From: Siniperca chuatsi
Taxonomy: Eukaryota; Chordata; Actinopteri; Centrarchiformes; Sinipercidae
DNA length: 64,000 nt
Reading direction: 5' to 3'
Assembly (NCBI RefSeq): GCF_020085105.1
Contig: NC_058052.1
Coordinates: 28,575,733-28,639,732, forward strand
The position numbers and the translations under genes were made by a program. Of this stretch, positions 7,419-47,660 are shown piece by piece (the stretch's first letter is position 1; every line of letters starts with the position of its first letter). The notes beneath the pieces are model-generated. The model was given only the letters and a program-made list of their open reading frames with translations. It had not been told where the DNA came from and did not search any database.

Positions 7419-10400
7419 CTGCAGGAAGGAAAAAACAAAGAGAAATGACTTCAGATTAACTTTCTGAAAGTGTGGGACGTTTAAAACATATTTATTTGTG
7501 CAGTAACAATTTCTGTTTTGATAAAGTCCACAATGTTCTTTTATATTTTCTTACTTTGGTTCCTATCAATGGTCTCAACCTCTGAGCAGCAGCGATCACA
7601 GTTCAATTAGTTCAAGATTAAATAATTAGAATAATAATTAATAGGAAAACACCAGTGAGATCATTCTGCACGGAAGAGACCAACAAGACTTTCATTTTAT
7701 TGGAATAAAAATAAATTCACAAATATATTAGCAGGACACAGACATGGCAGATAAAATACAATACATATAAATTAAATTATATCAATAAAATATAAATTAA
7801 TAAAATTCATTCTTCAACAAATTGACAGGGCCGTAGCAAGACATGAAAATGTTGTAAAGACAACCACTTGAGAACTATGGAGATTTGTTCGGACTAAACT
7901 TTCCGCTTGTGTTCGTGTTTCTGAAGTTAAGTCGCCCCAAACAGTGAATGTACCTGTACAGACTGCGACTGACTTTTACTTTTTCTCCCAATATTACCGA
8001 GGACATGGCGCTGCGTCAGCCCTGCCTCATGTAGTTTGTACTTTCTCAAAAATGTGACACAATGGCAGAGGTGCAGGAAGTACTCAGACCCGTTACTGCA
8101 GTAAAAGTACTGACACACACTCTGTAAAACACTCTGCTGCAGAGAAAGTGTGAGAGTGTGATCAGGAAAAAGCCCTTAAAGCATTAAAGCAGTGCAGCGT
8201 CCCTGTGGCTGCTGTGCTGTTATATATTCTATCATCAGGTTATTATTCCTCGTGCATTAATGTAAAGCAGGATGTTGCTGCTGCAGCTGGTGGAGCTGGA
8301 GCTCATGTTGAACCGGTTTGTATCGGACTGCAGCTGATGATGCTTTTCATTCTGGATCCATCTGCTGATTCTTTTCTCCGTCGATCCGTCGATCGATCGA
8401 TCGGTCGGTTTGGAAAACTGGTGAAAACGGCGAGAAACGCCGTCACGACGACCCAGAGCCCAAAGCGACGCCTTCACCGTGTCGTCGTGTCCGACCGACA
8501 GTCCAAAGCTCGACGTTATTAACAAACATCACAGTTATTACAGTCGTTCAGAGGAAAAGCAGCAGATCTGCACATCTGAGCAGCTGCAGCCAGGAAGGGA
8601 TTTACAGGAGAAACGACTTCAAACATCAAAACACATTTTCTGTCAGTCGACTGATCGATTCAGCTGAACTTATAAACTGCTGAGAGTTTAATTTCTAACA
8701 AAACATCAGGTTTTATAAACTCTTCATGTGTTTTGTGTGAAAATCTGTAAAGTGACTGCAGCGTTCAGATAAACGCAGTAAAGAGTCCAGCGGCTGCTGC
8801 CACATCTGATACTGCTTATAAAATCCAATATCTAGCAGCTTCATAAGAAGGCGAACAGTATAAACAAAGAGGATGAAATATGTGAGAGAGATGGCACGCA
8901 GTCACACTGCGGTTAAAAATAAATTCACGATGTTTAATGAAATAAAACAAAACACGAGGAGCAGTTTGTCTCGTGTGGAGCCGAGCCGAGGGTTTGGGTG
9001 GAGAACAGATATGAACCACAGCTCCGCCCTCAAACATTCCTCTGGTGGAAACTCTGCACATCTGAGAAGCTGCAACCAGGAAGTGATATCAAGATAAGAA
9101 TTCTTCCTTTGTCATATAGCAGGAGCTCTGAATGTATTATCGATAATTAATCAAAAGCAATATGCGTGCACTGGGCTGTCTTTGAATACATATAACGTTC
9201 ATAACCGCTGTTCCACATTTTACAGCTTTCACGCAACAACGTGGGACAGAAAACGATCATCTTTGTAAAGGAATGATAACCTCCAGCTCGTTATTTGTTA
9301 GTTTTTCCAGAAAGACTTTGTCCTCAAAGTGCTTGATCCCAGCTATCTCCTGAGGACAAACTGCACGTTGTTTGAATCTCAGAGGATTGTGTTCTGAAAA
9401 TGTAAAATCAGGGTGCATTAAGAGAGCAGTTTGCAGGCATTTTGTTTTATCCGTGAAATCCCTCGGCATGTGGGTCACTTTGATGGAAACACTCTGTTTG
9501 CATATCAGCAGAAGGACACTGAAGTGAAACTGTGTCAACGTCTCTCATTCGCCAGGAGCACCTTTAGAAGGAAGGCAGCAACAGAAAAAGCTTTCAGCTA
9601 CGAATAAGAAGAGGAGACGGCCGGGGTCAGAGGTCAGAGCGCACTGACTGTAGAAAACGGCTCAGAAATAATACAAAGAGTAAATGTAAGATGTTGTCCC
9701 GCTGCGCAGGACAACTCAAGTCGAATAAACTCTAAAATCATAGTAAGTGGAAGAAAAGGTTTTCGAAGGCACTGACGTCAGATCAGATGAGCTGATATGG
9801 GCTGTTGGAATGAGCCCAACCGACTGACAGTCACAGCTTTCTTACAGTCATTTTGTGCTGCGACCCTGAAATGGAAAAACGTTTTATTGTATTTTTTATT
9901 CTCTGCATTGTGTTTTCTGTGTCGCAAACAGCCTCTGTTATATTTGCCGTGTGTCACAGCTTCACATCCATTTCCTGACCGCGGCCTCGCCGGCCGCTTC
10001 GCGCTGATTAAACGACGTGACTTGAAGAAACGATGAGAAAGAAAGACACGACAGAGGCTCCTCTTCCTCAGCCGAACACACAGAAGTTTTGTAGTGATGA
10101 GACTCTGCTCAACGTTCATTTCCTCAGTGAACTTATCTCCTCTGTCAGACACCTTCAGGGTATCGTCTGTCAGTCCTGCGCGACACCAAAACGGCCCAGT
10201 TTCAACATCTGCAGCAGCCATCTTTTCCCTTTGTTTTTCCTACAGCATTTAAGCATTAGTTAAGGCTCTTTAAAAAAAGGCAGTTCGGATCCATCAACAC
10301 CCAGTAACTACAAACCAACCTCTTTCGTTTATATATATATATATACGTATATAGAGTTGATACTTTATTGTAGATAATGTCGTATCTCCACCTTTACTAC

Positions 10401-10953
10401 AAAGAGCACTAAGCTTTACTGCCGTATTTGTGATGATTCTAGCGTCTTTTTAGGAGAATATTATCTGTAAATTAAACTATATGTTAAATGTTTATTTAAC
10501 CAAAAAACACAGGTGGATATGCTTTCTTTTTAACCCTGAGTAGTGTCTGCAGGGCCTCCTTTCAGGCTACATACAGCCCAAACAAACCCTACAAATAAGG
10601 TAGAGCAGACTGCATGGTGCCTGACAGGTGAAAATCAGGGCAAAAAAAAAAGGCCTTCAAAGCACGAGCTGCTCCTCGTTACGCTTATTGCTGAGCGCAA
10701 GGTAATAACTGAAGCCGACTCAGATGTAAACCAATATCTTTTATCAGCTCTCTCTTCTCTCATCTGGACTATGATGGCTGGACAGTAAGAGGACACTGCT
10801 AAAAGGGATTTTCTTAAGAACCTAAAATGATAAAAGTGAGGGGGACAAAAATCTGTAAATGTGCCTGGATTCCCACAGAAATAAAATTAAACAAAAGAAG
10901 CAAAATAACAAGTGCAAGATAGATGGATTTACGACATTAGTTTCCACCCTTAC
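7419..10953 (-). other. ldb3: ldb3 intron between coding exons 2 and 3
   Basis: 3.5 kb intron (donor GTAAGG at 10953). It contains an interspersed repeat (8143-8800) that also occurs at 35122-35965, a CRE-like palindrome TGACGTCA at 9774-9781 and a short (AT)n run near 10332-10357. No exon was found in it. Confidence 0.8.
8143..8800 (+). repeat. Interspersed repeat, copy A (pair with 35.1-36.0 kb)
   Basis: About 550 bp (8143-8690) is nearly identical to 35122-35670 in the same orientation, including a CGATCGATCGATCG tract and a CTGCTGCAGCTGG block. The following 8670-8800 segment matches 35873-35965, so copy B has ~200 bp inserted between the two parts. It contains no intact protein frame: copy A and copy B are open in different places because of single-base indels. 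Probably a non-autonomous transposon or SINE-like family. Confidence 0.75.
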
Positions 10954-11105
10954 TTGGTCATGGTGAGCGCCAGGTTGTAGTTGGCCATCTTGATCTTGTT
11001 CTGGGCCTCCAGGTGAGTCATCCCCTCGGTGCTGACGCCGTCGATGGCGACGATGACATCACCCTGGACCAGGTTACCCTGCGCCGCCTTGCTGCCCGGA
11101 GTGAT
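10954..11105 (-). CDS. ldb3: ldb3 coding exon 2: second part of the PDZ domain
   Basis: 152 bp, acceptor TTTGGACAG, donor AA/GTAAGG. Starts phase 0 with [20 protein letters not shown], continues [19 protein letters not shown] and ends NYNLALTMT plus two bases of a Lys codon. This completes the PDZ fold begun in exon 1 and matches human LDB3 (ITPGSKAAQ..., [19 protein letters not shown]) better than PDLIM5 or PDLIM7, which differ at the start (LKDGGKAAQ, LTPGGKAAQ). The PDZ domain of ZASP binds the C terminus of alpha-actinin-2 and other Z-disc ligands. Phase fits exon 1 (31475) and exon 3 (7418). Confidence 0.95.
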
Positions 11106-11959
11106 CTGTCCAAACACAACGACTTTTAGATCTTACTTTTTGCTCCAAGAATCTTTAATCAGACTCATGACGGACACTGGGATCAAATGTGGAACATTTT
11201 GGTTCTCTGGTTGGCTTGTTATTGATTAATGAGAAGAACAAATCTCTTTCACTCTGAAGAAAGTAAAACAAAAAGTCAAAGTCATCTTCTTTTAGAGCTG
11301 AATGTAGGTTTCTAGCATGTGTGATGAATGTGTCCAGTAACACACACTGCAGGTCAGTGCACACGTCAATCTGCATCTTTCAATCACTTAGTCATGAAAA
11401 GCTGGATGGAAAAGGTTCATTGTCTTCCACGAAACAATCAATAAAATGGGTAAAGAATTAATAAATAACTTAATGATTAATATGTCTGCATGCTAAAGTC
11501 CCCTTAATCTGAAAATCCACCTCCGGAGTGGAGGTTTGTTGGTGTTTACCTGAGGGCCCAAGAGATGTTGAGGACATGACCCTCATTCACAACACAGTTA
11601 CAAAAACAAAATGGTTGACAAGTCTGCTTTCAAACAAACCAAAATAATCAGAAATGCAGTGAGTAACTATGACATCACTTGGTAGATTTGGTAAAATGGT
11701 GCAAATCCTGTATGGAGCCAAGCATAAATCTTCAATTTGTAAAATGAAAGAAACCCAATGTGACTTGAGAGGATCACCGAGTGCGAGTTTGAAAATATTT
11801 TGTACCAAATTAGCATGAAATTGTACCTGTGGTTTATTATAGGCCCACTGCCCACATCAGAATTGGTCTAATGTCTCATTTGTAAGTGATAACTGAATGA
11901 GCTGCAAATGAAATAACTAATAACAAGAGTCTCTGTGAGGCTGTAACTAGACACAGTGG

Positions 11960-13060: not shown

Positions 13061-13639
13061 ATGGATCTTGTGTGCACAAGACAGATCTAACGTCTTGTGC
13101 TTTACGAGGGGGTCTCCTTAAGACCATGATGGAGAGCAGGAGCAATTACAGGAACCAATAAACTTTTCAATACACATACGGGCATGTCAGTATTGTTTTA
13201 AGGTAGACTCGAATAAATGTGAACCTGAATCTGTCTGTCTGTTGGGAGAAGAGTCTGAACAGAAGTCTGCAGGATTAACAGAAAACACAGCAGCTGAGAC
13301 CTGGATGAGACTGTACTATAGATACACACACACTGATAAAGGTTAAATAGCGCAGGGACACTTCTTGTCTTGCTCTGACTCATTTGGCTGACCTTTCAAC
13401 TGAATGCGGGTCAATGTGTTTGAATGAAACGTCGCCCCCCTGGAGACAGCAGAGAGCCAGTCCCAGTTTACACTCTTCTCAGCTTACTGGTCCAGTTCCA
13501 GCTGGAAGAGTTCCTGCACCGAGGTCTGATCGCAGAATGAATTCAGCAGAGCTCAGAGCTGCTTTGGAAAAACCTCAGAGACTCAAACCATCAGTGGTTG
13601 GTTGATTTGAAATTCAGAACAAAACAGGGCTGTCAATCA

Positions 13640-13825
13640 ACAGGGAATTTAAAAGAGTATATTGCACAGGAGTATTAACACAGAATATTGCACAATTATT
13701 TCAAGTATTGCAGAGATGTTAATGGTCAATGACCAGTTTAATGACTTAGGGTCATACAGACTGACAGACTGAGGAGTTAAACAGTTTGATGGCCACAGGC
13801 AGACTTACTGTGGCGCTCTGTCAAC
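13640..13825 (-). mobile_element. LINE 3' fragment in array unit 1
   Basis: Reverse complement of the ORF2 end and 3' UTR of the LINE at 59480-60466: shared phrases are TGATGGCCACAGGCA, GTGGCGCTCTGT, GGTCATACAGACTGACAGAC, TATTGCACAGGAGTATTAAC and ACAGAATATTGCACAATTAT. Equivalent fragments lie in unit 2 and unit 3. Confidence 0.85.
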
Positions 13826-13917
13826 ATAATGTGTCGGTCTTTAAGATCTTCATCGTTTCAGTTCAGAAATGTCTTTGATACGATTGGACCTTAAATATTT
13901 AAAAAGCTGCTTGTGAA

Positions 13918-13990
13918 GGCGCTGTGGCTTAGTGGTCAAAGCACCTGTCTCGTAAACAGGAGATCCTGGGTTCAACTCCCAGCAGTGCCT
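13918..13990 (+). tRNA. tRNA-Thr (CGT), 73 nt
   Basis: Acceptor stem GGCGCTG/CAGTGCC (one G-T pair), A box in GGCTTAGTGG, anticodon arm CCTGT-CTCGTAA-ACAGG with anticodon CGT at 13951-13953, T arm CTGGG-TTCAACT-CCCAG containing B box GGTTCAACTCC, discriminator T. No intron. D-stem side reads AGCACC rather than the AGCGCC of most copies. Array unit 1, first gene. Confidence 0.92.
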
Positions 13991-14150
13991 GATTATCACT
14001 TACTTGGTCCTGTCATTTGCTCACCAAGATATTCAAGATTCTGGACCTTTGTTCTTTAAAATATTCTTGCTTCATTTTCAACCAAAGCAACAATTTGGGT
14101 TGACTGGAGGAAAATCAACGGTTTGAACCAACTGGAGGAAAGCAATGTAT

Positions 14151-14176
14151 GCTGGGTTCAACTCCCAGCAGTGCCT
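14151..14176 (+). pseudogene. 3' tRNA-Thr fragment (T arm and acceptor 3' side), unit 1
   Basis: 26 bp identical to the 3' end of the neighbouring tRNA-Thr genes: T-stem/loop GGGTTCAACTCCC plus CAGTGCCT, with no D or anticodon arm. Repeated at the same place in units 2 and 3. Confidence 0.85.
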
Positions 14177-14199
14177 GCGTCAGGTCAAGTGCGTCCAAC

Positions 14200-14585
14200 T
14201 TTATGCTTATAAGGGTTCACTAAAATGCACGCTTCAGCAAAACGCCTCTCTGTCGTTACAGCTGTCAAAGCAAGCGGCCGAAGTTCCCACCGCTGGTCAA
14301 AATAATGCGCTGACGTAACTGCGACTGCTGCGTTAAGTCCAACAGTCTCTGGTGAGCGCAACTGTCGTAGTCTTTCCCAACTCGTCCGCTACTTTCGCTT
14401 TCTGGTCTTCTCACAAGTTCTTCGATACGGTTGTGGCTCTAGAAGGCACTTCATAGTGCAGTCGTTGGATGCCATCCAAATTATTTCACGCAGACCCTCG
14501 TCCTCCACCTTGTTCCTTGGCCTGCGAGCTGTAGCCACCCATTTAGCTATTGCTGTTGAAAGCCTGCTGCTTGTAGGTTTGTCCA
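14200..14585 (-). pseudogene. hAT-type transposase relic, unit 1
   Basis: Minus-strand translation in shifting frames gives the order of a hAT/ZBED-like transposase: a VEDEGLREII phrase, then YEVPSRAT, then KVADELGKTT, TVALTRDCWTS-like, and SAHYFDQRWELRPLALTA. Frameshifts and stops break it into pieces, and the catalytic regions beyond are missing. Ancient copy amplified with the array. Confidence 0.75.
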
Positions 14586-14690
14586 GGGGTTTCTCTAGAA
14601 CAAAATAATCGCAGCCATCAGAAACATAATGGTTTTGGTGAATCCCTTCGCTGACAGAAGCGTCGGAGGGTCAATTCTTGCAAAGTTGGT

Positions 14691-14764
14691 GGCGCTGTGG
14701 CTTAGTTGGTCAAAGCGCCTGTCTCGTAAACAGGAGATCCTGGGTTCAACTCCCAGCAGTGCCT
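14691..14764 (+). tRNA. tRNA-Thr (CGT), 74 nt
   Basis: GGCGCTG/CAGTGCC acceptor stem, D arm GCTTAGTTGGTCAAAGC (one base longer than the 73-nt type), anticodon CGT in CTCGTAA, T arm CTGGG-TTCAACT-CCCAG. Array unit 1, second gene; 3' flank GGTTGTTACTGT is shared with other copies. No TTTT follows closely. Confidence 0.93.
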
Positions 14765-15132
14765 GGTTGTTACTGTCAAGGCGAAGTATCATGTTTGGGT
14801 TGATTAAGAACTCTTAGCCTTCTTATTGTCAGTTCGCCTCAGCTAGAGGTACAGAGCATATTCCAACTATAGAGTTCATCAACACGCTGGTCTTGTTCAA
14901 TTCAATCATCATTGTTCAAACGTCGCCCCCCTGGAGACAGCAGAGAGCCAGTCCCAGTTTACACTCTTCTCAGCTTACTGGTCCAGTTCCAGCTGGAAGA
15001 GTTCCTGCACCGAGGTCTGATCGCAGAATGAATTCATTAGAGCTCAGAGCTGCTTTGGAAAAACCTCAGAGACTCAAACCATCAGTGGTTGGTTGATTTG
15101 AAATTCAGAACAAAACAGGGCTGTCAATCAAC

Positions 15133-15318
15133 AGGGAATTTAAAAGAGTATATTGCACAGGAGTATTAACACAGAATATTGCACAATTATTTCAAGTATT
15201 GCAGAGATGTTAATGGTCAATGACCAGTTTAATGACTTAGGGTCATACAGACTGACAGACTGAGGAGTTAAACAGTTTGATGGCCACAGGCAGACTTACT
15301 GTGGCGCTCTGTCAACAT
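15133..15318 (-). mobile_element. LINE 3' fragment in array unit 2
   Basis: Same fragment as 13640-13825, one period further on. Confidence 0.85.
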
Positions 15319-15409
15319 AATGTGTCGGTCTTTAAGATCTTCATCGTTTCAGTTCAGAAATGTCTTTGATACGATTGGACCTTAAATATTTAAAAAAGCT
15401 GCTTGTGAA

Positions 15410-15482
15410 GGCGCTGTGGCTTAGTGGTCAAAGCGCCTGTCTCGTAAACAGGAGATCCTGGGTTCAACTCCCAGCAGTGCCT
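15410..15482 (+). tRNA. tRNA-Thr (CGT), 73 nt
   Basis: Array unit 2, first gene. Same arms as the copy at 13918 but with the standard AGCGCC, anticodon CGT. Confidence 0.93.
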
Positions 15483-15640
15483 GATTATCACTTACTTGGT
15501 CCTGTCATTTGCTCACCAAGATATTCACTTCTGGACCTTTGTTCTTTAAAATATTCTTGCTTCATTTTCAACCAAAGCAACAATTTGGGTTGACTGGAGG
15601 AAAATCAACGGTTTGAACCAACTGGAGGAAAGCAATGTAT

Positions 15641-15666
15641 GCTGGGTTCAACTCCCAGCAGTGCCT
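15641..15666 (+). pseudogene. 3' tRNA-Thr fragment, unit 2
   Basis: Same 26-bp T-arm plus acceptor 3' fragment as at 14151. Confidence 0.85.
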
Positions 15667-15689
15667 GCGTCAGGTCAAGTGCGTCCAAC

Positions 15690-16075
15690 TTTATGCTTAT
15701 AAGGGTTCACTAAAATGCACGCTTCAGCAAAACGCCTCTCTGTCGTTACAGCTGTCAAAGCAAGCGGCCGAAGTTCCCACCGCTGGTCAAAATAATGCGC
15801 TGACGTAACTGCGACTGCTGCGTTAAGTCCAACAGTCTCTGGTGAGCGCAACTGTCGTAGTCTTTCCCAACTCGTCCGCTACTTTCGCTTTCTGGTCTTC
15901 TCACAAGTTCTTCGATACGGTTGTGGCTCTAGAAGGCACTTCATAGTGCAGTCGTTGGATGCCATCCAAATTATTTCACGCAGACCCTCGTCCTCCAACT
16001 TGTTCCTTGGCCTGCGAGCTGTAGCCACACATTTAGCTATTGCTGTTGAAAGCCTGCTGCTTGTAGGTTTGTCCA
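15690..16075 (-). pseudogene. hAT-type transposase relic, unit 2
   Basis: Near-identical repeat of the relic at 14200-14585. Confidence 0.75.
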
Positions 16076-16180
16076 GGGGTTTCTCTAGAACAAAATAATC
16101 GCAGCCATCAGAAACATAATGGTTTTGGTGAATCCCTTCGCTGACAGAAGCGTCGGAGGGTCAATTCTTGCAAAGTTGGT

Positions 16181-16254
16181 GGCGCTGTGGCTTAGTTGGT
16201 CAAAGCGCCTGTCTCGTAAACAGGAGATCCTGGGTTCAACTCCCAGCAGTGCCT
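16181..16254 (+). tRNA. tRNA-Thr (CGT), 74 nt
   Basis: Array unit 2, second gene; sequence identical to 14691-14764 as far as I can read, including the GGTTGTTACTGT flank. Confidence 0.93.
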
Positions 16255-16622
16255 GGTTGTTACTGTCAAGGCGAAGTATCATGTTTGGGTTGATTAAGAA
16301 CTCTTAGCCTTCTTATTGTCAGTTCGCCTCAGCTAGAGGTACAGAGCATATTCCAACTATAGAGTTCATCAACACGCTGGTCTTGTTCAATTCAATCATC
16401 ATTGTTCAAACGTCGCCCCCCTGGAGACAGCAGAGAGCCAGTCCCAGTTTACACTCTTCTCAGCTTACTGGTCCAGTTCCAGCTGGAAGAGTTCCTGCAC
16501 CGAGGTCTGATCGCAGAATGAATTCATTAGAGCTCAGAGCTGCTTTGGAAAAACCTCAGAGACTCAAACCATCAGTGGTTGGTTGATTTGAAATTCAGAA
16601 CAAAACAGGGCTGTCAATCAAC

Positions 16623-16808
16623 AGGGAATTTAAAAGAGTATATTGCACAGGAGTATTAACACAGAATATTGCACAATTATTTCAAGTATTGCAGAGATGT
16701 TAATGATCAATGACCAGTTTAATGACTTAGGGTCATACAGACTCACAGACTGAGGAGTTAAACAGTTTGATGGCCACAGGCAGACTTACTGTGGCGCTCT
16801 GTCAACAT
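16623..16808 (-). mobile_element. LINE 3' fragment in array unit 3
   Basis: Same fragment as in units 1 and 2, with small substitutions (for example GATCAATGACC for GGTCAATGACC). Confidence 0.85.
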
Positions 16809-16899
16809 AATGTGTCGGTCTTTAAGATCTTCATCGTTTCAGTTCAGAAATGTCTTTGATACGATTGGACCTTAAATATTAAAAAAAGCTGCATGTGAT

Positions 16900-16972
16900 G
16901 GCGCTGTGGCTTAGTGGTCAAAGCGCCTGTCTTGTAAACAGGAGATCCTGGGTTCAACTCCCAGCAGTGCCT
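16900..16972 (+). tRNA. tRNA-Thr (TGT), 73 nt, anticodon-switched copy
   Basis: Array unit 3, first gene. Differs from the unit 2 copy at 15410 at the anticodon first base: CTTGTAA instead of CTCGTAA (position 16933), making TGT. The body of the tRNA is otherwise unchanged; the 5' flank has ATGTGATG for TTGTGAAG. Still threonine. Confidence 0.92.
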
Positions 16973-17130
16973 GATTATCACTTACTTGGTCCTGTCATTT
17001 GCTCACCAAGATATTCACTTCTGGACCTTTGTTCTTTAAAATATTCTTGCTTCATTTTCAACCAAAGCAACAATTTGGGTTGACTGGAGGAAAATCAACG
17101 GTTTGAACCAACTGGAGGAAAGCAATGTAT

Positions 17131-17156
17131 GCTGGGTTCAACTCCCAGCAGTGCCT
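17131..17156 (+). pseudogene. 3' tRNA-Thr fragment, unit 3
   Basis: Same 26-bp fragment as at 14151 and 15641. Confidence 0.85.
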
Positions 17157-17179
17157 GCGTCAGGTCAAGTGCGTCCCAA

Positions 17180-17570
17180 CTTTATGCTTATAAGGGTTCA
17201 CTAAAATGCACGCTTCAGCAAAACGCCTCTCTGTCGTTACAGCTGTCAAAGCAAGCGGCCGAAGTTCCCACCGCTGGTCAAAATAATGCGCTGACGTAAC
17301 TCGCGACTGCTGCGTTAAGTCCAACAGTCTCTGGTGAGCGCAACTGTCGTAGTCTTTCCCAACTCGTCCGCTACTTTCGCTTTCTGGTCTTCTCACAAGT
17401 TCTGGCTCTGTGGCTCTAGAAGGCACTTCATAGTGCAGTCGTTGGATGCCATCCAAATTATTTCACGCAGACCCTCGTCCTCCACCTTGTTCCTTGGCCT
17501 GCGAGCTGTAGCCACCCATTTAGCTATTGCTGTTGAAAGCCTGCTGCTTGTAGGTTTGTCCAGGGGTTTC
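17180..17570 (-). pseudogene. hAT-type transposase relic, unit 3
   Basis: Same relic as in units 1-2, with extra small indels, so the readable frame shifts: here DGIQRLHYEVPSRAT and SAHYFDQRWELRPLALTA fall in one frame. Confidence 0.75.
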
Positions 17571-17655
17571 TCTAGAACAAAATAATCGCAGCCATCAGAA
17601 ACATAATGGTTTTGGTGAATCCCTTCACTGACTTTTCAATTCTTGCAAAGTCGGT

Positions 17656-17729
17656 GGCGCTGTGGCTTAGTTGGTCAAAGCACCTGTCTCGTAAACAGGA
17701 GATCCTGGGTTCAACTCCCAGCAGTGCCT
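17656..17729 (+). tRNA. tRNA-Thr (CGT), 74 nt
   Basis: Array unit 3, second gene; AGCACC variant on the D-stem side, anticodon CGT, standard acceptor and T arm, GGTTGTTACTGT 3' flank. Confidence 0.92.
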
Positions 17730-18082
17730 GGTTGTTACTGTCAAGGCGAAGTATCATGTTTGGGTTGATTAAGAACTCTTAGCCTTCTTATTGTTAGTTC
17801 GCCTCAGCTAGAGGTACAGAGAATATTCCAACTATAGAGTTCATCAACACGCTGGTCTTGTTCAATTCAATCATCATTGTTCAAACGTCGCCCCCTGGAG
17901 ACAGCAGAGAGCCAGTCCCAGTTTACACTCTTCTCAGCTTACTGGTCCAGTTCCAACTGGAAGAGTTCCTGCACCGAGGACTGATCGCAGAATGAATTCA
18001 GCAGAGCTCAGAGCTGCTTTGGAAAAACCTCAGAGACTCAAACCATCAGTGGTTGGTTGATTTGAAATTCAGAACAAAACAG

Positions 18083-18350
18083 GGCTGTCAATCGATTCAA
18101 ATATTTAATAGCAATTAATGGCATGATTGTCCGTAGTTTATCGCAAATTAATCACACATGTTTTATCTGTTTAAAATGTACCTTAAAGGGAGGTTTTTCA
18201 AGTATTTAATACGCTTATCAACATGGGATTGGACAAATATTCTTGCTTCATGAAAATCTATGTATATTTATTATTGGAAATCAATTAACAACACAAAACA
18301 CTGACTAATACTGTCCAGAAACTCAAGCCCAACAGGCAACAACAGATGAA
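18083..18350. mobile_element. hAT-like transposon end in array unit 4
   Basis: Begins with CAGGGCTGTCAATCGATT, a TIR-like start typical of some hAT elements, followed by AATTAATGGCATGATTGTCC and AATTAATCACACATG, phrases of a common fish hAT-derived repeat. In units 1-3 the sequence after CAGGGCTGTCAATC is replaced by the LINE fragment. It may be the outer end of the element whose transposase relic lies at 18350-18735. Confidence 0.5.
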
Positions 18351-18735
18351 GTGCGTCCAACTTTATGCTTATAAGGGTTCACTAAAATGCACGCTTCAGC
18401 AAAACGCCTCTCTGTCGTTACAGCTGTCAACGCAAGCGGCCGAAGTTCCCACCGCTGGTCAAAATAATGCGCTGACGTAACTGCGACTGCTGCGTTAAGT
18501 CCAACAGTCTCTGGTGAGCGCAACTGTCGTAGTCTTTCCCAACTCGTCCGCTACTTTCGCTTTCTGGTCTTCTCACAAGTTGTGTATCTTCGATGGTGGC
18601 TCTCGAAGGCACTTCATAGTGCAGTCGTTGGATGCCATCCGAATTATTTCACCCTTGTTCCTTGGCCTGCGAACTGTAGCCACCCATTTAGCTATTGCTG
18701 TTGAAAGCCTGCTGCTTGTAGGTTTGTCCAGGGGT
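18350..18735 (-). pseudogene. hAT-type transposase relic, unit 4
   Basis: Fourth copy of the relic, more diverged: contains SAHYFDQRWELRPLALTA and DELGKTTT in the minus translation and lacks the stretch encoding VEDEGLREII (deleted near 18650). Confidence 0.7.
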
Positions 18736-18835
18736 TTCTCTAGATCAAAATAATCGCAGCCATCAGAAACATAATGGTTTTGGTGAATCCCTTTGCTGAC
18801 AGAAGCTTCGGAGTGGCAATTCTTGCAAAGTAGGT

Positions 18836-18909
18836 GGCGCTGTGGCTTAGTTGGTCAAAGCGCCTGTCTTGTAAACAGGAGATCCTGGGTTCAACTCCCA
18901 GCAGTGCCT
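18836..18909 (+). tRNA. tRNA-Thr (TGT), 74 nt
   Basis: Second TGT gene: anticodon at 18870-18872 in CTTGTAA. It has the 74-nt D loop of the unit second-position genes but is followed by GATTATCGCTTACTTGGTCC, the flank of first-position genes, so this unit looks like a recombination product between the two tRNA positions. Confidence 0.93.
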
Positions 18910-19214
18910 GATTATCGCTTACTTGGTCCTGTCATTTGTCCATTTTCTCTCACCAAGATATTTGCTTCTGGACCTTGGTTCTTTAAAATATTCTTGCTTC
19001 ATTTTCAACCAAAGCAACAATTTGGGCTGACTGGATGAAAATCAACGGTTTGAACCAACTGGAGGACAGTAATGTATGAGACATCCTGTTTGTTTAAAGA
19101 CAACTACACAGATCAAAATCAACATAATGTGTCAGTCTTTAAGATCTTCATCGTTTCAGTTCAAAAATGTTTTGGATACGCTTGGACCTTAAATATTAAA
19201 AAAAAGCTTGTGAA

Positions 19215-19287
19215 GGCACTGTGGCTTAGTGGTCAAAGCGCCTGTCTCGTAAACAGGAGATCCTGGGTTCAACTCCCAGCAGTGCCT
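19215..19287 (+). tRNA. tRNA-Thr (CGT), 73 nt
   Basis: Acceptor stem GGCACTG/CAGTGCC is perfectly paired here. Anticodon CGT. Upstream flank resembles the first-position flank of the array units (GATCTTCATCGTTTCAGTTC). Confidence 0.92.
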
Positions 19288-19522
19288 GGTTGTTACAGGA
19301 AGTTTATCATGTTTAATCTCCCTCATAGTGAGGATACGTCTGTAAACTAGACACAACAAACATACAAAATGTATTTGTGTTTAACTCTGGTTTATATAAC
19401 TCCAAGTAATGTACGTATAGAGACAAGAAAAAACAACTCTCAGAGCCAGTTGAGTAAAGTTAAAAATAAAGCCAAATATTTTAAATAAAAAGGGTCACAA
19501 AGAGATGAAGATAATAACATCT

Positions 19523-19596
19523 AGGCGCTGCTGGGAGTCGAACCCAGGATCTCCTGTTTACTAGACAGGCACTTTAACCAACTAAGCCACAGCGCC
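19523..19596 (-). tRNA. tRNA-Thr (AGT), 74 nt
   Basis: Minus strand. Acceptor GGCGCTG/CAGCGCC perfectly paired, D arm with GGTTAAAGTGCC, anticodon AGT in CTAGTAA, T loop TTCGACT. Only minus-strand tRNA in the ldb3 intron; same transcriptional direction as ldb3. Flank GCCAAATATTTTAAATAAA resembles that of the minus-strand genes at 38.6 and 39.5 kb. Confidence 0.92.
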
Positions 19597-19844
19597 TCAG
19601 AAAAAATAGTTAGCTGTGGGCTACAACTTGAGCCCTGATTTTTTTGGTCTATATTTGTTTACATTTTGGCAAATTGGCACCATTAAAAGTATGCTGAATT
19701 GGCTATTAGCATTTCCTGTTTGCAGCGTACCCATGGATGAAAAGACAACTATGGCTGGATTACTTTGATTCTTAAGAAAACTTAAAAACATGATGACATG
19801 ACGTATCCTCACTATGAGGGAGATTAACGCAACCGTTACAACTC

Positions 19845-29660: not shown

Positions 29661-31474
29661 TTTTCTCTCCTGCAGCCACACGAAGCCAGTCTGGCTGCAT
29701 CTCAGGATCTCAGAAGTCGCCCGGGGAGTAGAAACAAAGACAAGAATGGATAAACAGTCCAAGTTAATGTGTCATACGCTCAGTGCAGCAACTTTTCAAC
29801 TTTCCAATGTATCCCGTAAAAACCTCAAAGCAAACCTTCAGCATCGCATCGCATCCTGTGTCAGTCCATTAAAGTTAAATTTGCCTTTTCCATTTTCTTG
29901 CAAGATCATCTTTAAAACTTGCACTTGAAATTTCCACCTTCTGCACGTCACTTATCGTCACTTCAACATGTTTGAACTGTTGTCAGTGGACAGATCTGCA
30001 GCTGGCAGCTGGTCCCGGATCCTGACAACAGCAAGAAGACTGTCGATGTCATGGAAAAGCAAAGAGAAAATGAATTCCTCTGCACATTTGCTGAAGCTGT
30101 TATTCAGAGCAGCTCGCACAATGAGCCTCAATGCCAAAATCACCAACAAGCAGCCAACAGAGAGAAGGTCAAAGGTCAAGGACCACAGCGTCCTGACAGC
30201 AGATGCAGCAAATCCTCCCGGGAGCCCGGAAAGACTGGGGACGATAAAGAAATGCAGAGTGAAGCAGTGGAGAGGTGGAGGAGTGTTTTCTCTCTCTGTC
30301 TCTGGTCTATTCAGAGAGACGAGGCTGTGAAACCAACACCAGCTCCAGTTTTAGGCCTCCGGCTCTGCTTTCGGCCTCCCTGATAAATCCTGGCAGTCGC
30401 CACGCCCTGCGGGGCCGCCGGGGGCCGCGGATCTTACCCTGACAGGCTTCACATGTGTTTCTGAATCATCCGCAAATCACAGTTCATTATCAAAACCACC
30501 CGCACAGAACAGAACAATGAAACAGGAATGACAGAAAACAGCCAGCTTTAAAGGACGATACCACTGTTTCCCCCAAGGTTTTATATTCTTGCATGTGTGT
30601 TTCCATTCATTTCAGTAAACTAAGAAAAGTTACTAGCAGAGACTTTATTTGTTAATCGTTTGAAGCACCGATTCCTCACTGTGAACTGCACGTCTACTCT
30701 TCTGATTAAAGTCACACTGCCTGTCTGTGGTGCTGCAGGGCAAAATGCAGATTTATTTGACTAATTTCATTAAAATGTTACAATAATCGAAGTTTCTGCA
30801 AGCTGATTTTGATTTTCACGGCGGATCAAAACGAACGGAAAACAGCAGTCAAAAATCTCCTTCTTCTCAAATCAGAGTCCTTGAAATCACTGAATGCATT
30901 AGTCTCATTTTAACTAATTTCATTCTTTGTAAATGTTGTTCTAATGCATTTCTTCGTCTTACGTAAAGCACTTTGAATCGCCCCTGTGTTTTAAAGGTGC
31001 CTTAAAAAAGTATTTTGGGGGGCATTTTTTACTTTATTTTGATATTGATAGAAGAGAGATGACAGGACATGAGGTCCCCAGCTCCCCAAAGCCTTCGGCC
31101 ACCAGGACGCCTCGTTCAGTCACTCATTTATAGAAAATTCTTGAAATGAGAAACGAGAAACAGGGATATGAGACGTGCAATATTCTCACTGCACATGTCT
31201 GTCACTTGTTTTTAAGAAAACTTTCATGCTGAGACAGATTTTTTTGCGCTGTTGAAGATATAAAAACACTTTAGGAAGTTAGAAACATGATGGTATACGT
31301 TAAAATAAGTTTTACAAAAGAGACAAAGCATCCTTCAACCAAACTGAGGCCAAACGCACAGAAAGCAGTCTGAACTCAGGTGTCCCTGCTGATGGAGGTG
31401 AGCAGCTGAGATAAAAAGAAACCCTAAAAACTAAAAAGGGTGTTTTTTAAATGCATCTTTTAGCAGTTTCTTAC

Positions 31475-31683
31475 CCTGGAGATGGTCAGCGGCATGTTGA
31501 AGTCCTTCCCCCCCTGCAGCCTGAAGCCCCAGGGGCCGGGGCCGGGCAGCGACACGGTGTAGGCGCTCATTCTTCCAGACAACTAGAGGATCCTCCGAAA
31601 TGGACGATGGCAATTAAACAAAATGTTTTCAAAACCCCACAGCTGCTGGAGGGATGGGAGGGAGGGCCGGTGGCGAGCAGCCT
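31475..31683 (-). CDS. ldb3: ldb3 coding exon 1 with start codon (first part of PDZ) and 5' UTR
   Basis: The coding part is 31475-31570 (32 codons): [20 protein letters not shown], then [12 protein letters not shown], then donor [25 protein letters not shown] is the hallmark N-terminal half of the LDB3 PDZ domain, including its carboxylate-binding loop region. The start is set by homology and by an in-frame TAG four codons upstream of the ATG; no other ATG lies between 31571 and 31683. A strong acceptor (TCTCCTTTCAG, ending at 31684) suggests the 5' UTR is spliced and that the promoter lies further upstream. ZASP/Cypher is a striated-muscle Z-disc scaffold that binds alpha-actinin and, through its LIM domains, PKC. 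The last codon is complete, so phase 0 joins exon 2. Confidence 0.95.
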
Positions 31684-34844: not shown

Positions 34845-35121
34845 ACGGAGAGAGTATCTGATGAAAGGGGAGGGTGGTGTGATAGTGGATCTCTCTCTCA
34901 GCATTAACAACACATAACTGACCTCAGAGCACTTGTGAATAGTTTGTCATTTTAAACAGCTTCTTAACTGAGCTGCCTTGTTAAGTTAAAGGTCAGCTCA
35001 GTCTGACACACACAAACAGGAGGGAGGAAGGTTGTGTGTGTGTGTGTGTGTGTGTGTGTGCTACATATTCATCAGTGGTGGACGAAGTAATCCCGTGCGT
35101 TAAAAATACTCCGTTACTGCA

Positions 35122-35965
35122 GTGAAAGTGTGAGAGTGTGATCAGGAAAAAGCCCTTAAAGCATTAAAGCAGCGCAGCGTCCCTGTGGCTGCTGTGCTGT
35201 TATATATTCTATCATCAGGTTATTATTCCTCGTGCATTAATGTAAAGCAGGATGTTGCTGCTGCAGCTGGTGGAGCTGGAGCTCATGTTGAACCGGTTTG
35301 TATCGGACTGCAGCTGATGATGCTTTTCATTCTGGATCCATCTGCCGATTCTTTTCTCCGTCGATCCGTCGATCGATCGATCGATCGGTTTGGAAAACTG
35401 GTGAAAACGGTGAGAAACGCCGTCCACGACGACCCAGAGCCCAAAGCGACGCCTTCACCGTGTCGTCGTGTCCGACCGACAGTCCGAAGCTCGGCGTTAT
35501 TAACAAACATCACAGTTATTACAGTCGTTCAGAGGAAAAGCAGCAGATCTGCACATCTGAGGAGCTGCAGCCAGGAAGGGATTTACAGGAGAAACGACTT
35601 CAAACATCAAAACACATTTTCTGTCAGTCGACTGATCGATTCAGCTGAACTTATAAACTGTTGAGAGTTTAATTTATGTTTTGTATAAAAATCTGTAAAG
35701 TTACTAAAGCTGTCAGATGAATGTAGTGAAGTAAAAAGTGAAGCACATGTACCTCGAATTAGTACTCGAGTACAGTTCTTGAGTAAATGTTGGACCTTGT
35801 GTTGAATTCTTTTGTCAAGTTGTTGTTTTTACTAAAGAGAGCGTCAACAGTTAAAATGTGGTTTTGACACATAAACTGCTGAGAGTTTAATTTCTAACAA
35901 AACATCAGGTTTTATAAACTTTGTGTAAAACTCTGTAAAGTGACTGCAGATAAACGCAGTAGAGA
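35122..35965 (+). repeat. Interspersed repeat, copy B (pair with 8.1-8.8 kb)
   Basis: 35122-35670 matches 8143-8690, and 35873-35965 matches 8672-8800. The 200 bp between contain MITE-like AGTGAAGTAAAAAGTG and CTTGAGTAAATG phrases, suggesting an insertion. The 159-codon frame seen here is broken in copy A. Confidence 0.75.
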
Positions 35966-36680: not shown

Positions 36681-36967
36681 AACGGTGGATTTTCATTAGC
36701 AGGGGTTTTATTTAAAGAGGCAGCAGCCTGACAGACTACAGCAGTGCGTACTGCGTCCTAAATGAAAGATCACCTGCAGACTGAAGGACTCAAGCAATAC
36801 TCACACCTGCATCACATGACTGTATCGATCACATGACCGGTCCCAGCTGCCTTTGAATCAAAAATTGATCACCAGGAATGTAAATCAACGTGACCTCTTC
36901 CACTAAATTTAATATGTTCCAGTATAATTGAATGGCACATTAAAATGATTAAATATTTCAGTGTTAA

Positions 36968-38011
36968 AGGGACAGTTCACCCCAAAATCAAAAACACATA
37001 TTCCTCCTCTCACCTGTAGAGCTGTTTATGCATCTGGATTGTTTTGCTGTGAGATGCTGAGTTTTGGAGATATCGGCCGTAGAGATGTCTGCATTATAAT
37101 ATAACGGGACTGCATGGCGCTCGGCTCAAAGCGCCAAAAAATACATTTGAAAAACTCAACAGCAACGTCTCTCTGCAGAAATCACGACCCGGTTACTGAA
37201 GATAATCAAGCAGTTTCATGTAGGAACTATTTTCTTTCTACCGAACTACACCCGCCAACCGTATCACCGAGCAGAAGGAAGGTGCATCTTCTCTTGGACG
37301 AGAGGCTTGTCAATCCAATCTGAAGCCAATCTGACATAGAGGCCAAACTGTGTACTTAAAACTTCCGGGTCCGTCACGTGACGCACACTGGCCCAAAACG
37401 ACTTTTTCCCCAAAGACTTACATTGTGAAAGAAGCGGCTGTAAAATGGTGGCTCAATTTTTTTGAGAGTCACAACCCTCGCGAAATGACTCGTTTCACTA
37501 TCTGAATTTGATCCATTTAGTCCGATAATATTTAGAAAGTCTGGAAGAGCCGCACGATTAAATCATTTTATCCCCATTCAAGTTAGCGGAGGGCTAATAC
37601 ATCCATGCTCGTGACAACGCAGGATGTAAACATTAATGGCGTCCTCCTTGGCTGGATGTATCGTTAGCTAGACGCTAGGTGAGCTAGCGGTATCGCTGCA
37701 AGCTGCCTTCGGTGATAGGGTTGGCGGGTGTAGTTCGGTAGAAAGAAAATAGTTCCTACATGAAACTGCTTGATTATCTTCAGTAACCGGGTCGTGATTT
37801 CTGCAAAGAGACGTTGCTGTTGAGTTTTTCAAATGTATTTTTTGCCGCTTTGAGCCGAGCGCCATATAGTCCCGTTATATCATAATGCAGACATCTCTAC
37901 GGCCGATATCTCCAAAACTCAGCATCTCACAGCAAAACTATCCAGATGCATAAACAGCTCAACAGGTGAGAGGAGGAATATGTGTTTTTGATTTTGGGGT
38001 GAACTGACCCT
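36968..38011. mobile_element. TTAA-flanked 1,044-bp inverted-repeat transposon (Kolobok- or piggyBac-like MITE)
   Basis: Left end AGGGACAGTTCACCCC and right end GGGGTGAACTGACCCT form terminal inverted repeats flanked by TTAA on both sides (36964-36967 and 38012-38015), the target duplication of Kolobok and piggyBac elements. The inverted arms extend about 300 bp with few differences; as a result the same short peptide frame (MALGSKRQKIHLKN...) appears on the plus strand at 37114 and the minus strand at 37865. The central ~350 bp is unique and has no transposase. Non-autonomous. Confidence 0.88.
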
Positions 38012-38312
38012 TTAAATATTTATTCTACAGTACATTATATATGTGTGAGCTCCAACGTTTTTCCTCTTCACTGTTCCCCAACATCCTGCTTCACATTCTC
38101 TCTCCATCATTCACAATTATTTATCTACCACTGCGCAATGAAGTGACGCAATGCATTGTGGGGAAGTTGAGAAATTCTTGCCTATCTAGTAGATTTCAAA
38201 CAGAGGAATCTTCACAATGAAGGGGATTAAACATGACAGACTTTCTGTAGCAACAGTTAAATATGGATCATAATACATTACAGTTAAAGTCAAGAGATTA
38301 ATCTGCTGTTTA

Positions 38313-39536: not shown

Positions 39537-39610
39537 AGGCACTGCTGGGATTTGAACCCAGGATCTCCTGTTTACTAGACAGGCGCTTTAACCAACTAAG
39601 CCACAGCACC
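39537..39610 (-). tRNA. tRNA-Thr (AGT), 74 nt
   Basis: Acceptor GGTGCTG/CAGTGCC, D arm TTAGTTGGTTAAAGC, anticodon AGT, T loop TTCAAAT. Duplicated flank with 38640-38713. A short inverted repeat GGATCTTTG...CAAAGATCC sits in its 3' flank (39474-39500). Confidence 0.92.
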
Positions 39611-45590: not shown

Positions 45591-47660
45591 CTCTGCATAA
45601 TCCCCGTTCTGTCAGACAGGGAAATACAGTTATTAGCTCATTATTTTATATTCAGAATTATTTCGCTTTTAACTCATTTAAGATTAAGAGATTGTATGTA
45701 TTTTATGAAATCCAATGTTTTTCATCTTGATTGGACCGTGTAGATCTGTTTCTTTTTATTTACAATAAAAAAATCACTGACGCCACAGTGATGGCTAGAT
45801 GGCGTCACTGGGCGTCACTGCGATGGCGACTGCGATGGCGTCACAGCGATGGCGCCACTGTGGCGTCACTGCGATGGCGTCACTGTGGCGTCACAGCGAT
45901 GGCGTCACTGGGGCGTCACTGCGATGGCGTCACTGCGATGGCGTCACTGCGATGGCGTCACAGCGATGGCGTCACTGTGGCGTCACTGCGATGGCGTCAC
46001 TGTGGCGTCACAGCGATGGCGTCACTGTGGCGTCACAGCGATGGCGTCACTGTGGCGTCACTGCGATGGCGTCACTGTGGCGTCACAGCGATGGCGTCAC
46101 TGTGGCGTCTCAGCGATGGCGTCACTGTGGCGTCACTGCGATGGCGCCACTGCGATAAGCGTCACTGCGGCGTCACAGCGATGGCGTCACTGTGGCGTCA
46201 CTGCGATGGCGCCACAGCGATGGCGCGGCGGCACAGCGATGGCGTCACAGCGATGGCGTCCACTGCGATGGCGTCCTGGCGATGGCGTCACAGCGATGGC
46301 GTCACTGTGGCGTCACAGCGATGGCGTCACTGTGGCGCCACAGCGATGGCGTCACTGTGGCGTCACTGCGATAGCGCTCACTGTGGCGTCCACTGCGATA
46401 GCGTCACTGCGATGGCGTCCACTGCGATAAGCGCCACTGTGCGTCCACAGCGATGGCGCTACTGCGATAGCGTCACTGCGATGGCGTCACAGCGATGGCG
46501 TCACTGTGGCGTCACAGCGATGGCGTCACTGTGGCGTCACTGCGATAGCGTCACTGTGGCGTCACTGCGATAAGCGTCACTGCGATAGCGTCACTGCGAT
46601 AAGCGTCACTGCGATGGCGTCACAGCGATGGCGTCACTGTGGCGTCACAGCGATGGCGCGTCACTGTGGCGTCACAGTGATGGCGCACTGCGATAAGCGT
46701 CACTGCGATGGCGTCACAGCGATGGCGTCACTGTGGCGTCACAGCGATGGCGCTACTGTGGCGTCACTGCGATAAGCGTCACCGCGATGGCGTCACTGCG
46801 GCGTCACTGCGATGGCGTCACTGTGGCGTCACTGCGATAGCGTCACTGCGATAGCGTCACTGCGGCGTCACTGCGATGGCGTCACAGTGATGGCGATAAG
46901 CGTCACTGTGGCGTCACAGCGATGGCGTCACTGTGGCGTCACACTGCGATGGCGGCGCCACTGCGATGGCGTCACTGCGGCGTCACTGCGATGGCGCCAC
47001 TGCGATAAGCGTCACTGCGGCGTCCACTGCGATGGCGCCACTGTGGCGCGTCATACCACTAATACCACACTGTGAAAATAAAGTCCTGCATTTTAAGTCA
47101 AAGTTTGTAAGTATTAACAGGAAAATGTTCTTAAAGAATCAAAAGTAAAAGTACTCATTGTAAAGATGAACTCTCCTGCTCGGGGTCTAATCTTTTCATC
47201 CTTTAGGTGGCGCATTGAGCCTGATGTTTTGAGGCAAATACATCTACCAGCACGTGATTAACTGTTGACAAAATGACTTGAATTGTTTTATTTTATGTGA
47301 GAAAAGTAAAAACTAGTTTTTAGTAAGTTAGTTACTGGGTATAGTTACTCTTTAGGAATCTGCAGTTATGGAAGCAAACTCAGAACACCTTTGTACAACA
47401 GTTTCCACTTCAAAGAAACAAGATTAAGTAAACGCCACTTTACCAAAATAATTAGTTGCAGCAGTGAAGACAGTTTCACTCACACTGTTGTGTCTGACTT
47501 AACGTTATTAAAATATACTTCTGGTTTATTACCACCTGTCTGATCGTCTGACTGCACGCGTCTGTTGACCGGTCGGATTTAATTTGATGTTTCCAGATCT
47601 CAGATATTAGTGTTTACAGGGTCCAGGGAATAAATGAACAAATCAGACAGTTGGACTCAC
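45591..47660 (-). other. opn4: opn4 last intron
   Basis: 2.07 kb, of which 1.27 kb is the GCGTCAC minisatellite. The remaining 47.06-47.66 kb holds a short TAAAAGTAC MITE trace (47080-47165) and nothing else recognised. Confidence 0.8.
45785..47053. repeat. CpG-dense minisatellite (GATGGCGTCACTG / TGGCGTCAC units)
   Basis: About 1.27 kb built from two interchangeable units: a 14-bp unit GCGATGGCGTCACT (or ...CACA) and an 11-bp unit GTGGCGTCACT, often alternating as a 25-bp higher-order unit, with variants GCGATAAGCGTCACT and GCGATAGCGTCACT more frequent in the second half. No stop codons occur in the plus strand for long stretches, giving a 280-codon frame, but all three frames encode the same shuffled peptide (MASLWRH..., CDGVTV...), which is a property of the repeat, not of a gene. 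Confidence 0.97.

Follow-up and report, generated by a model that had tools for sequence, protein, structure and literature searches.

The window, i.e. the whole stretch of 64,000 nucleotides from Siniperca chuatsi that was analysed, contains an array of ∼5.9 kb made of four units that carry tRNA-Thr genes. Units U1 (13427–14917, 1491 bp), U2 (14918–16407, 1490 bp) and U3 (16408–17882, 1475 bp), delimited by self-comparison and unit alignment, lie head to tail on the plus strand across 13427–17882, and U4 (17883–19296, plus strand) carries its parts in another order. Substitutions among U1–U3 ranged from 0.40% to 1.56% (6/1489 for U1 and U2, 23/1472 for U1 and U3, and 21/1473 for U2 and U3); the copies are distinguishable and age-graded, with private variants and indels in the unit alignment. 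The divergence of U1 from U4 varied by segment, from 0.9% to 8.3%. These values bear out the preliminary description, which had reported three nearly identical units of about 1.49 kb and a young segmental tandem duplication of a composite unit, and high-identity head-to-tail units with tRNA genes are a feature of a tandem tRNA gene array. Positions 13.2–19.4 kb correspond to about 28588.9–28595.1 kb on C11.

The array lies antisense to ldb3, inside the intron (11121–31471, minus strand; the splice sites are approximate) that splits the PDZ domain, between PDZ exons at about 31472–31564 and 10953–11120 (minus strand). Both exons gave LDB3/ZASP/Cypher as best matches, which identifies the muscle gene in whose intron the array had been placed; a query for the LDB3 LIM region returned a chance match only (E 0.92). 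Just beyond the array, perfect 28-bp inverted repeats with TTAA ends (19313–19340 and 19800–19827) surround an AGT tRNA gene (19523–19596). A tRNA-carrying TIR mobile element at 19313–19827 was not supported: among the best 40 of 892 candidates the inverted repeat matched only itself, and most of the 40 matched an unrelated abundant repeat (19607–19796). At the far end of the window, an RT-like frame (59345–59695) matched only PF09004 (E 8e-5), a label presumably often given to LINE proteins.

All four units begin with the same stretch, the 212 segment (13427–13632 in U1, plus strand; shared with U4 up to 13638), whose four own-genome matches (4/4) were the array copies. In U1 it is followed by a high-copy LINE 3' end that is cut at its 5' side (13633–13821, minus strand). 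The reversed LINE end of the preliminary description is thereby confirmed as an interspersed repeat: a first look in the own genome gave 3224 candidates, and 36 of the best 40 of these that were scored showed LINE-only matches at 86–89%. Flank Q (13822–13917, plus strand) leads into the A-type tRNA gene and flank P (13991–14151, plus strand) follows it. A 25–26-bp 3' piece of tRNA-Thr comes next (14152–14177, plus strand), with further copies at 15642 and 17132; the 26-bp piece ascribed to every unit is thus present at these three places and absent from U4. After ∼10 unplaced bases, a hAT transposase relic (14178–14690, minus strand) forms flank h of the B-type tRNA gene, and flank R (14765–14917, plus strand) lies 3' of that gene. 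The relic has three relatives on C3 at 82–88% in the own genome; the four best matches of a 184-aa frame of one relative were all to Hermes-kind transposases and all weak (E 0.028–0.037). Pfam hAT models matched neither the relic nor its C3 relatives; sub-threshold hits, to Clr2 for the C3 relatives (E 0.014 and 0.13) and to an unrelated toxin-subunit family of bacteria for one relic frame (E 0.16), were put down to chance. The LINE, hAT and tRNA parts, taken singly, were found elsewhere in the own genome, and the 984-bp core occurred in full nowhere else (19 of 21 candidates scored). The proposed search for the unit elsewhere in the genome accordingly returned no second copy, so that the dispersed copies of a transposon or SINE carrying a tRNA were not seen.

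The eight tRNA-Thr genes of the array, two per unit as previously described, are all on the plus strand and structurally intact (8/8), scoring 71–74 bits against the Rfam tRNA model (gathering score 29); nine more tRNA-Thr genes lie elsewhere in the window, and 17/17 window tRNA genes scored 69–74.6 bits. The A genes of U1 (13918–13990, with a G4:U69 pair) and U2 (15410–15482) have a CGT anticodon and the 73-nt D-loop form. The B genes of U1 (14691–14764, G4:U69), U2 (16181–16254) and U3 (17656–17729) are putative hybrids that join CGT to the 74-nt D-loop form, and the A gene of U3 (16900–16972) is a putative hybrid of TGT and the 73-nt form. U4 holds a TGT gene of the 74-nt form (18836–18909), followed by a CGT gene of the 73-nt form with A4-U69 (19215–19287). 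Outside the array the two markers are strictly linked: among 64 tRNA-Thr genes of the same body (ARAGORN calls in the window and fetched loci), CGT occurred with the 73-nt (short) form in 3/3 genes and AGT or TGT with the 74-nt (long) form in 61/61. Inside the array this rule is broken in 4/8 genes, and D-loop form and wobble base occur in all four combinations. Among the 72 genes together, the 74-nt CGT and 73-nt TGT forms were confined to the array. Judged from their sequences, half of the array genes look like front-to-back hybrids of different-codon versions.

The flanks are mixed as well. The pair Q-P encloses the genes at 13918, 15410 and 16900, and h-R those at 14691, 16181 and 17656; within the array, h-P (18836) and Q-R (19215) are found in U4 only. 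All four pairings of the upstream (Q, h) and downstream (P, R) flanks are thus present. Two linked markers in all four combinations, seen for the flanks and again for D-loop form and wobble base, are the pattern that hybrid isoacceptors formed by exchange would leave, with the R side of 19215 being short. There the R flank of U4 aligns across only ∼30 bases; its identity to R was reached in 2/2000 shuffles and its identity to P in 1426/2000. The likeness of R to P was reached in 255/2000 shuffles and is not clearly random. The U4 R flank is not itself a match to the 39.5-kb flank (635/2000 shuffles), and 11 bases of R, TTGTTACTGTC, recur at the 39.5–39.77 kb locus (7/2000 shuffles).

The same separate locus bears on the age of U4, in which the order is 212 segment, hAT relic, tRNA, P, ext, Q, tRNA and short R. 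The ext stretch (19079–19118, plus strand), which links P to Q, is shared with the 39.5–39.77 kb locus, where P tail, ext, Q and tRNA likewise adjoin one another. Because of this common order, U4 probably retains the older arrangement; what had been called a recombined fourth unit does differ in order, but is more likely the older form. The Q copy of that locus, upstream of 39537 on the minus strand, accompanies a 74-nt AGT gene, and the linkage of Q to the 73-nt form is therefore confined to the array. In the 212 segment, a two-base variant is common to U1 and U4 and absent from U2 and U3, and U1 differs from U4 at 2/211 positions versus 33/739 in Q, P and h (Fisher p 0.013). That crossover homogenised the 212 segment is supported by U1 only: the 4/211 positions at which U2 and U3 depart from U4 are not significant against the rest (p 0.11).

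The array at ldb3 is one of four tRNA-Thr arrays seen in this genome. A pattern search found 75 places, of which two on C1 and two of 14 on C20 had no ARAGORN tRNA call; on C12, ARAGORN called 38 genes and the pattern search 37. The C12 array has a 430-bp unit and mixes AGT and TGT genes (A34/U34), with few changes (4) on a flank tree built from 34 of its 38 units, without the two terminal units on either side. A further array on C20 has a TGT gene amid CGT copies. A second body type comprises eight more tRNA-Thr genes (seven CGT, one TGT) on C9, C17 and C20, which were excluded from the sets of 64 and 69 genes; the seven CGT genes ruled out the ldb3 intron as the sole source of tRNA-Thr CGT.

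A functional Pol III tRNA gene is expected to have at least four T residues shortly 3' of the gene. Such a T4 run was found within 25 nt in 0/17 window genes and within 50 nt in 3/17. It was present within 25 nt in 12/12 genes of the C20 AGT array, and two Ile-TAT genes also have T4 runs. It was lacking within 150 nt in the parsed C12 genes (0/36), within 25 nt in those of C7 (0/2) and C15 (0/2), and within 60 nt in the second body type (0/8); the absence of T4 was therefore dropped as a pseudogene mark of the array. One unparsed C7 gene runs into a T tract. Pol III is known to read through and to use non-canonical ends, and a tRNA gene that lacks a T4 run may still function. The genome offers a natural comparison of one array with T-run terminators and others without.

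We consider it probable that a cluster of tRNA-Thr genes recently underwent tandem amplification here, with exchanges inside the tRNA genes. The older order would have been flank h, a 74-nt TGT gene, P, ext, Q, a 73-nt CGT gene and R, as still visible in U4. At least two exchanges within the two ∼74-bp genes, by unequal crossover, gene conversion or template switching, would have re-paired the flanks as Q-P and h-R and created the hybrid isoacceptor genes; LINE insertion and further joins may then have completed the composite. The unit may then have been multiplied by crossover between copies of the 212 segment, which flanks it as a direct repeat. The A genes of U1 and U2, which are CGT with flank P, need an extra exchange or a back mutation. 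With 74 bp, the shared sequence is short for crossover in vertebrates, so that template switching or gene conversion fits equally. The tRNA genes had been described as passengers of the duplication; they are segmentally duplicated, but they are also the places where flanks and anticodons were recombined, and from these junctions they look like exchange points, not passengers alone.

A single complex event of replication template switching, with forks stalling at Pol III genes, could have built the composite, the switches falling in tRNA bodies and in the 3' piece; plain tandem duplication would then have followed. This scenario is a version of the favoured one and compatible with it. The joints do lie in or at tRNA sequence, including the 25–26-bp piece with its unplaced bases before the hAT relic, and the excerpted text of PMC2888827 ties tRNA clusters to fork pausing and instability. 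Against a single event, the segment-dependent divergence of U1 and U4 suggests several events over time, and we regard this form of the origin as possible rather than favoured.

Retention of the array for its supply of tRNA-Thr (CGT, G4:U69), for example for a maternal pool or tRNA fragments, is unlikely. It would suit the intactness of all eight genes and, as far as the excerpted sources go, the derivation of zebrafish egg and early-embryo isodecoders from highly repetitive regions, the isodecoder switch of the zebrafish Thr-AGT/TGT/CGT group (PMC11417395), and the conservation of G4:U69 tRNA-Thr among vertebrates (PMC7337962). However, the tRNA bodies of the young copies are not less divergent: U1 and U4 differ at 3/147 positions in the bodies versus 33/739 in the flanks, without significantly stronger conservation (p 0.25), and the bodies of U1–U3, with three variable columns in 147, are not visibly more conserved than their flanks. 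The contrast in T4 runs between the window genes and the C20 AGT array also speaks against it.

Point mutation, by which position 34 shifted in duplicated passenger genes while unrelated indels changed the flanks, is more doubtful still. Single-base wobble shifts are common, tRNA-Thr changes from AGT to CGT and TGT recur in primates (PMC4981973, in part), and the C12 array mixes AGT and TGT with few changes (4) on its flank tree. It leaves unexplained why, at the tRNA genes, flanks exchange partners in every possible combination, and why the markers agree in 64/64 genes outside the array whereas they disagree in 4/8 inside. An assembly artefact, with extra units from merged haplotypes or repeat error, is very improbable: the 0.40% between U1 and U2 lies within the allelic range of fishes, but each unit has private variants and indels, U3 is 1.4–1.6% away, U4 is arranged differently, and the assembly that holds the array, with 719 Mb in 65 contigs, is contiguous enough to suggest long reads.

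The hybrids of the array suggest that tandem tRNA arrays can shuffle decoding types. Tentatively, tandem tRNA-Thr arrays may drive local recombination in which isoacceptor genes trade the wobble base, with exchange within genes, not point mutation, as a main source of new anticodon/body combinations here. The mixing of C34/U34 here, of A34/U34 on C12 and of TGT amid CGT on C20 is consistent with this reading; the mixing in the latter two arrays is compatible with either exchange or mutation. Through the array the genome gains intact tRNA-Thr genes of the CGT and TGT types, most of them with G4:U69. If the hybrids were expressed, as repeat-borne zebrafish tRNAs appear to be in oocytes, recombination as well as mutation could alter how much ACG- and ACA-reading tRNA-Thr is supplied.

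Small tandem tRNA arrays are a known, ordinary kind. The preliminary description saw no sign that the composite has a name, but tandem composites that bear tRNA genes have been described before. The human 1q23.3 repeat, as excerpted from PMC4041453, likewise has head-to-tail units that are ∼98% alike, in which several tRNA genes accompany a partial LINE and part of an LTR element; its units are 7.3 kb, present in 9–43 copies, with five tRNA genes for four amino acids and a CTCF site, whereas the array here has 1.49-kb units in three plus one copies, tRNA-Thr only, and is intronic. Teleost tRNA genes are clustered, mostly in parallel orientation (genes and pseudogenes together, 65% in zebrafish and 87% in stickleback), and the excerpt of PMC2888827 illustrates a cluster that combines Thr (AGT or TGT) with Arg (TCT); in the array here, unit, joints and hybrid isoacceptors are resolved. 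The G4:U69 pair, which allows mischarging of tRNA-Thr with alanine (PMC7337962, PMC5802732), occurs in 7/8 array genes, all but 19215, and may allow mischarging of these as well; its share in this genome (27/69 parsed same-body genes, 69 of 72 tRNA-Thr genes being parsed) falls within the 20–40% excerpted for chordates. As in isoacceptor anticodon shift or remolding (PMC3923123, PMC4981973, PMC3868979, all in part), the wobble base differs between near-identical tRNA-Thr genes, but here the flanks and a second in-gene marker change along with it, an indication that genes exchanged sequence and did not only undergo point mutation. Sequence transfer between tRNA genes is known as gene conversion (serine tRNAs of S. 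pombe, cited in PMC4981973; mouse strains, PMC13169703); the emphasis in the excerpted texts is on copies kept alike, whereas transfer in the array would give new combinations of marker and anticodon. The array documents, at an early and still legible stage, the expansion of a tRNA cluster: the joints that lie in tRNA genes, the repeat that may have multiplied the unit, and the recombination of isoacceptor types in the process.

Self-comparison of the window gave three head-to-tail units, U1 (13427-14917), U2 (14918-16407) and U3 (16408-17882), followed by a rearranged fourth, U4 (17883-19296), in agreement with the preliminary description of three near-identical ~1.49-kb units and a recombined fourth. 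In the unit alignment, substitutions were present at 6/1489 positions between U1 and U2, 23/1472 between U1 and U3, and 21/1473 between U2 and U3; the three are distinguishable copies of graded age, with U3 the most distant. The unit consists of a 212-bp segment, a LINE 3' end, flank Q, a 73-nt tRNA-Thr gene (A type), flank P, a tRNA 3' piece (25–26 bp), a hAT relic, a 74-nt tRNA-Thr gene (B type) and flank R; ~10 bases between the tRNA piece and the relic (flank h) are unplaced. The proposed search for the unit elsewhere had a divided outcome: the 212-bp segment matched the species' own genome within the array (4/4) and nowhere else, while the LINE 3' end (13633-13821, minus strand) is high-copy (40 of 3224 first-look candidates scored). 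The hAT label is based on three relatives of the relic on contig C3 (82–88% identity), one with a 184-aa frame; the best four solved matches of this frame were Hermes-type transposases, all with weak E-values (0.028–0.037), and a Pfam search returned no hAT match. The window contains 17 intact tRNA-Thr genes (CGT 9, TGT 2, AGT 6), 8 of which belong to the array.

The flanks of the array genes occur in every upstream/downstream pairing: Q-P at the A genes and h-R at the B genes of U1-U3, h-P at the gene at 18836 and Q-R at 19215. The identity to R 3' of 19215 extends over ~30 bases and was equalled by 2/2000 shuffles (1426/2000 for the score against P). The D-loop length form (73 or 74 nt) tracked the upstream flank in 8/8 array genes, and a Q copy outside the array, at 39537, goes with the 74-nt form. 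Among 64 tRNA-Thr genes of the same sequence type (the array body) outside the array, called by ARAGORN in the window and fetched loci, CGT genes were 73-nt in 3/3 cases and AGT or TGT genes 74-nt in 61/61. This rule is broken in 4/8 array genes, three combining the 74-nt form with CGT (14691, 16181, 17656) and one the 73-nt form with TGT (16900), and within 5.4 kb of array each D-loop form is found with both wobble bases, C and U. Point mutation would cover the mismatches of form and anticodon alone and leaves the flank pairings unaccounted for; exchange between isoacceptor genes accounts for both. The array tRNA genes therefore look like points of exchange, and their earlier portrayal as passengers holds in that young tandem copies carry them, but not for flanks, D-loop form and wobble base, which appear re-paired at the genes themselves.

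The tail of P, the joining stretch ext (19079-19118 in U4), Q and a tRNA gene also adjoin one another on the minus strand at 39.5–39.77 kb, where self-comparison gave 78% across 248 columns. Eleven bases of R, TTGTTACTGTC, reappear after the tRNA gene there (7/2000 shuffles); the short R of U4 is without a match at this locus (635/2000), and the score of R against P was reached in 255/2000 shuffles, so that randomness is not clear-cut. Since the P tail-ext-Q-tRNA order is common to both places, U4 most likely keeps the older order, h-tRNA-P-ext-Q-tRNA-R, though the preliminary description had called it the recombined one. Exchange between the two tRNA genes of a U4-type order would yield Q-P and h-R as the expected reciprocal products. 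Because these now share one unit, at least two events, or a single complex template switch, would be required, and CGT next to P, as carried by U1 and U2, calls for one further change. The unit would later have multiplied, perhaps through crossover in the 212-bp segment: U1 and U4 differ at 2/211 positions there versus 33/739 in Q+P+h (Fisher p 0.013) and have a two-base variant in common that is missing in both U2 and U3. This last step is weak, because U2 and U3 versus U4 gave 4/211 (p 0.11).

Gene content, repeats and genome size suggest a teleost. A tRNA core pattern with three mismatches allowed was found at 75 places in the assembly (719 Mb, 65 contigs; the window is C11:28575733-28639732), and ARAGORN called 72 tRNA-Thr genes of the array body in the window (17) and in fetched loci on C12 (38), C20 (12), C7 (3) and C15 (2). 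The C12 array (L052-L054, C12:29369056-29389085) holds its 38 genes mostly in 427–434-bp units with AGT and TGT mixed, and its flank tree (34/38 units included) implies at least four anticodon changes. A seven-unit block there is seemingly duplicated (u20-26, u27-33), but u25 is AGT and u32 TGT. The 12 genes of the C20 array (L009, L055; C20:22383424-22402262) are all AGT, spaced 0.9–1.9 kb apart, many at ~1.36 kb. A second tRNA-Thr body is found on C9, C17 and C20, in seven CGT genes and a single TGT gene, and includes a tandem array (L068, C20:16994901-17002300; ~97% identity) of four CGT and one TGT genes interleaved with two Ile-TAT. The window array is therefore one among four tRNA-Thr arrays seen in the genome, and the seven second-body CGT genes rule out this locus as the sole CGT source.

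Two minus-strand exons (~31472-31564 and 10953-11120) jointly encode one PDZ domain with LDB3, ZASP and Cypher as best solved matches. By these matches the array lies antisense inside an ldb3 intron of ~20.3 kb that interrupts this domain, as the placement in a muscle-gene intron had anticipated. Next to the array, perfect 28-bp inverted repeats with TTAA ends (19313-19340, 19800-19827) enclose a minus-strand tRNA-Thr AGT gene (19523-19596) and an interspersed repeat of ~190 bp (19607-19796; a query containing it gave 892 first-look candidates, 40 scored). Self-comparison also gave, in or near ldb3, a 573-bp direct repeat (8126-8694, 35103-35675) and a 307-bp inverted repeat (36964-37270, 37709-38015), both at 97%. 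A 1.2-kb minisatellite of 14-bp units (45811-47043) keeps long open frames, and the tRNA-Thr gene at 54676 sits between opn4 exons, which are located between 60.6 and 51.8 kb.

All array genes are intact and 7/8 carry the G4:U69 pair, described as conserved in vertebrate tRNA-Thr and as causing alanine mischarging in vitro that is cleared by ThrRS or ATD (PMC7337962, PMC5802732). As 27/69 parsed genes of the array body in this genome have the pair, the array is unexceptional in this respect. No four-T run was found within 25 nt 3' of any of the 17 window genes, which would argue against easy function. The run is likewise missing on C12 (0/36), on C15 (two genes), from the pair of C7 genes that could be parsed and from the second body; one unparsed C7 gene continues into a T tract, and the C20 AGT array has T4 within 8 nt, and G4:U69, in 12/12 called genes. 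Pol III read-through is reported to be common in human cells (PMC5356446). The motif TTGTTACTGT lies directly 3' of the genes at 14691, 38640, 39537 and 54676, whose flanks otherwise differ, and is possibly a non-canonical terminator. In the young copies (U1-U3 alignment; U1 versus U4) the tRNA bodies are not better conserved than the flanks, and thus give no apparent sign of selection. Maternal isodecoders of zebrafish are apparently repeat-borne ones (PMC11417395), which makes oocytes the first candidate site for any expression of the array.

Among the matches listed by searches of the open-licence literature, none dealt with this ldb3-intron array or described tandem arrays with hybrid isoacceptor genes. 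Papers do describe tRNA clusters in fish (PMC2888827), isoacceptor shifts (PMC3923123, PMC4981973, PMC3868979) and conversion among tRNA genes (PMC13169703). Human 1q23.3 is likewise reported as a tandem composite holding tRNA genes and retroelement pieces (PMC4041453). The array is of a familiar type, to which the hybrid isoacceptor genes add an instructive twist.
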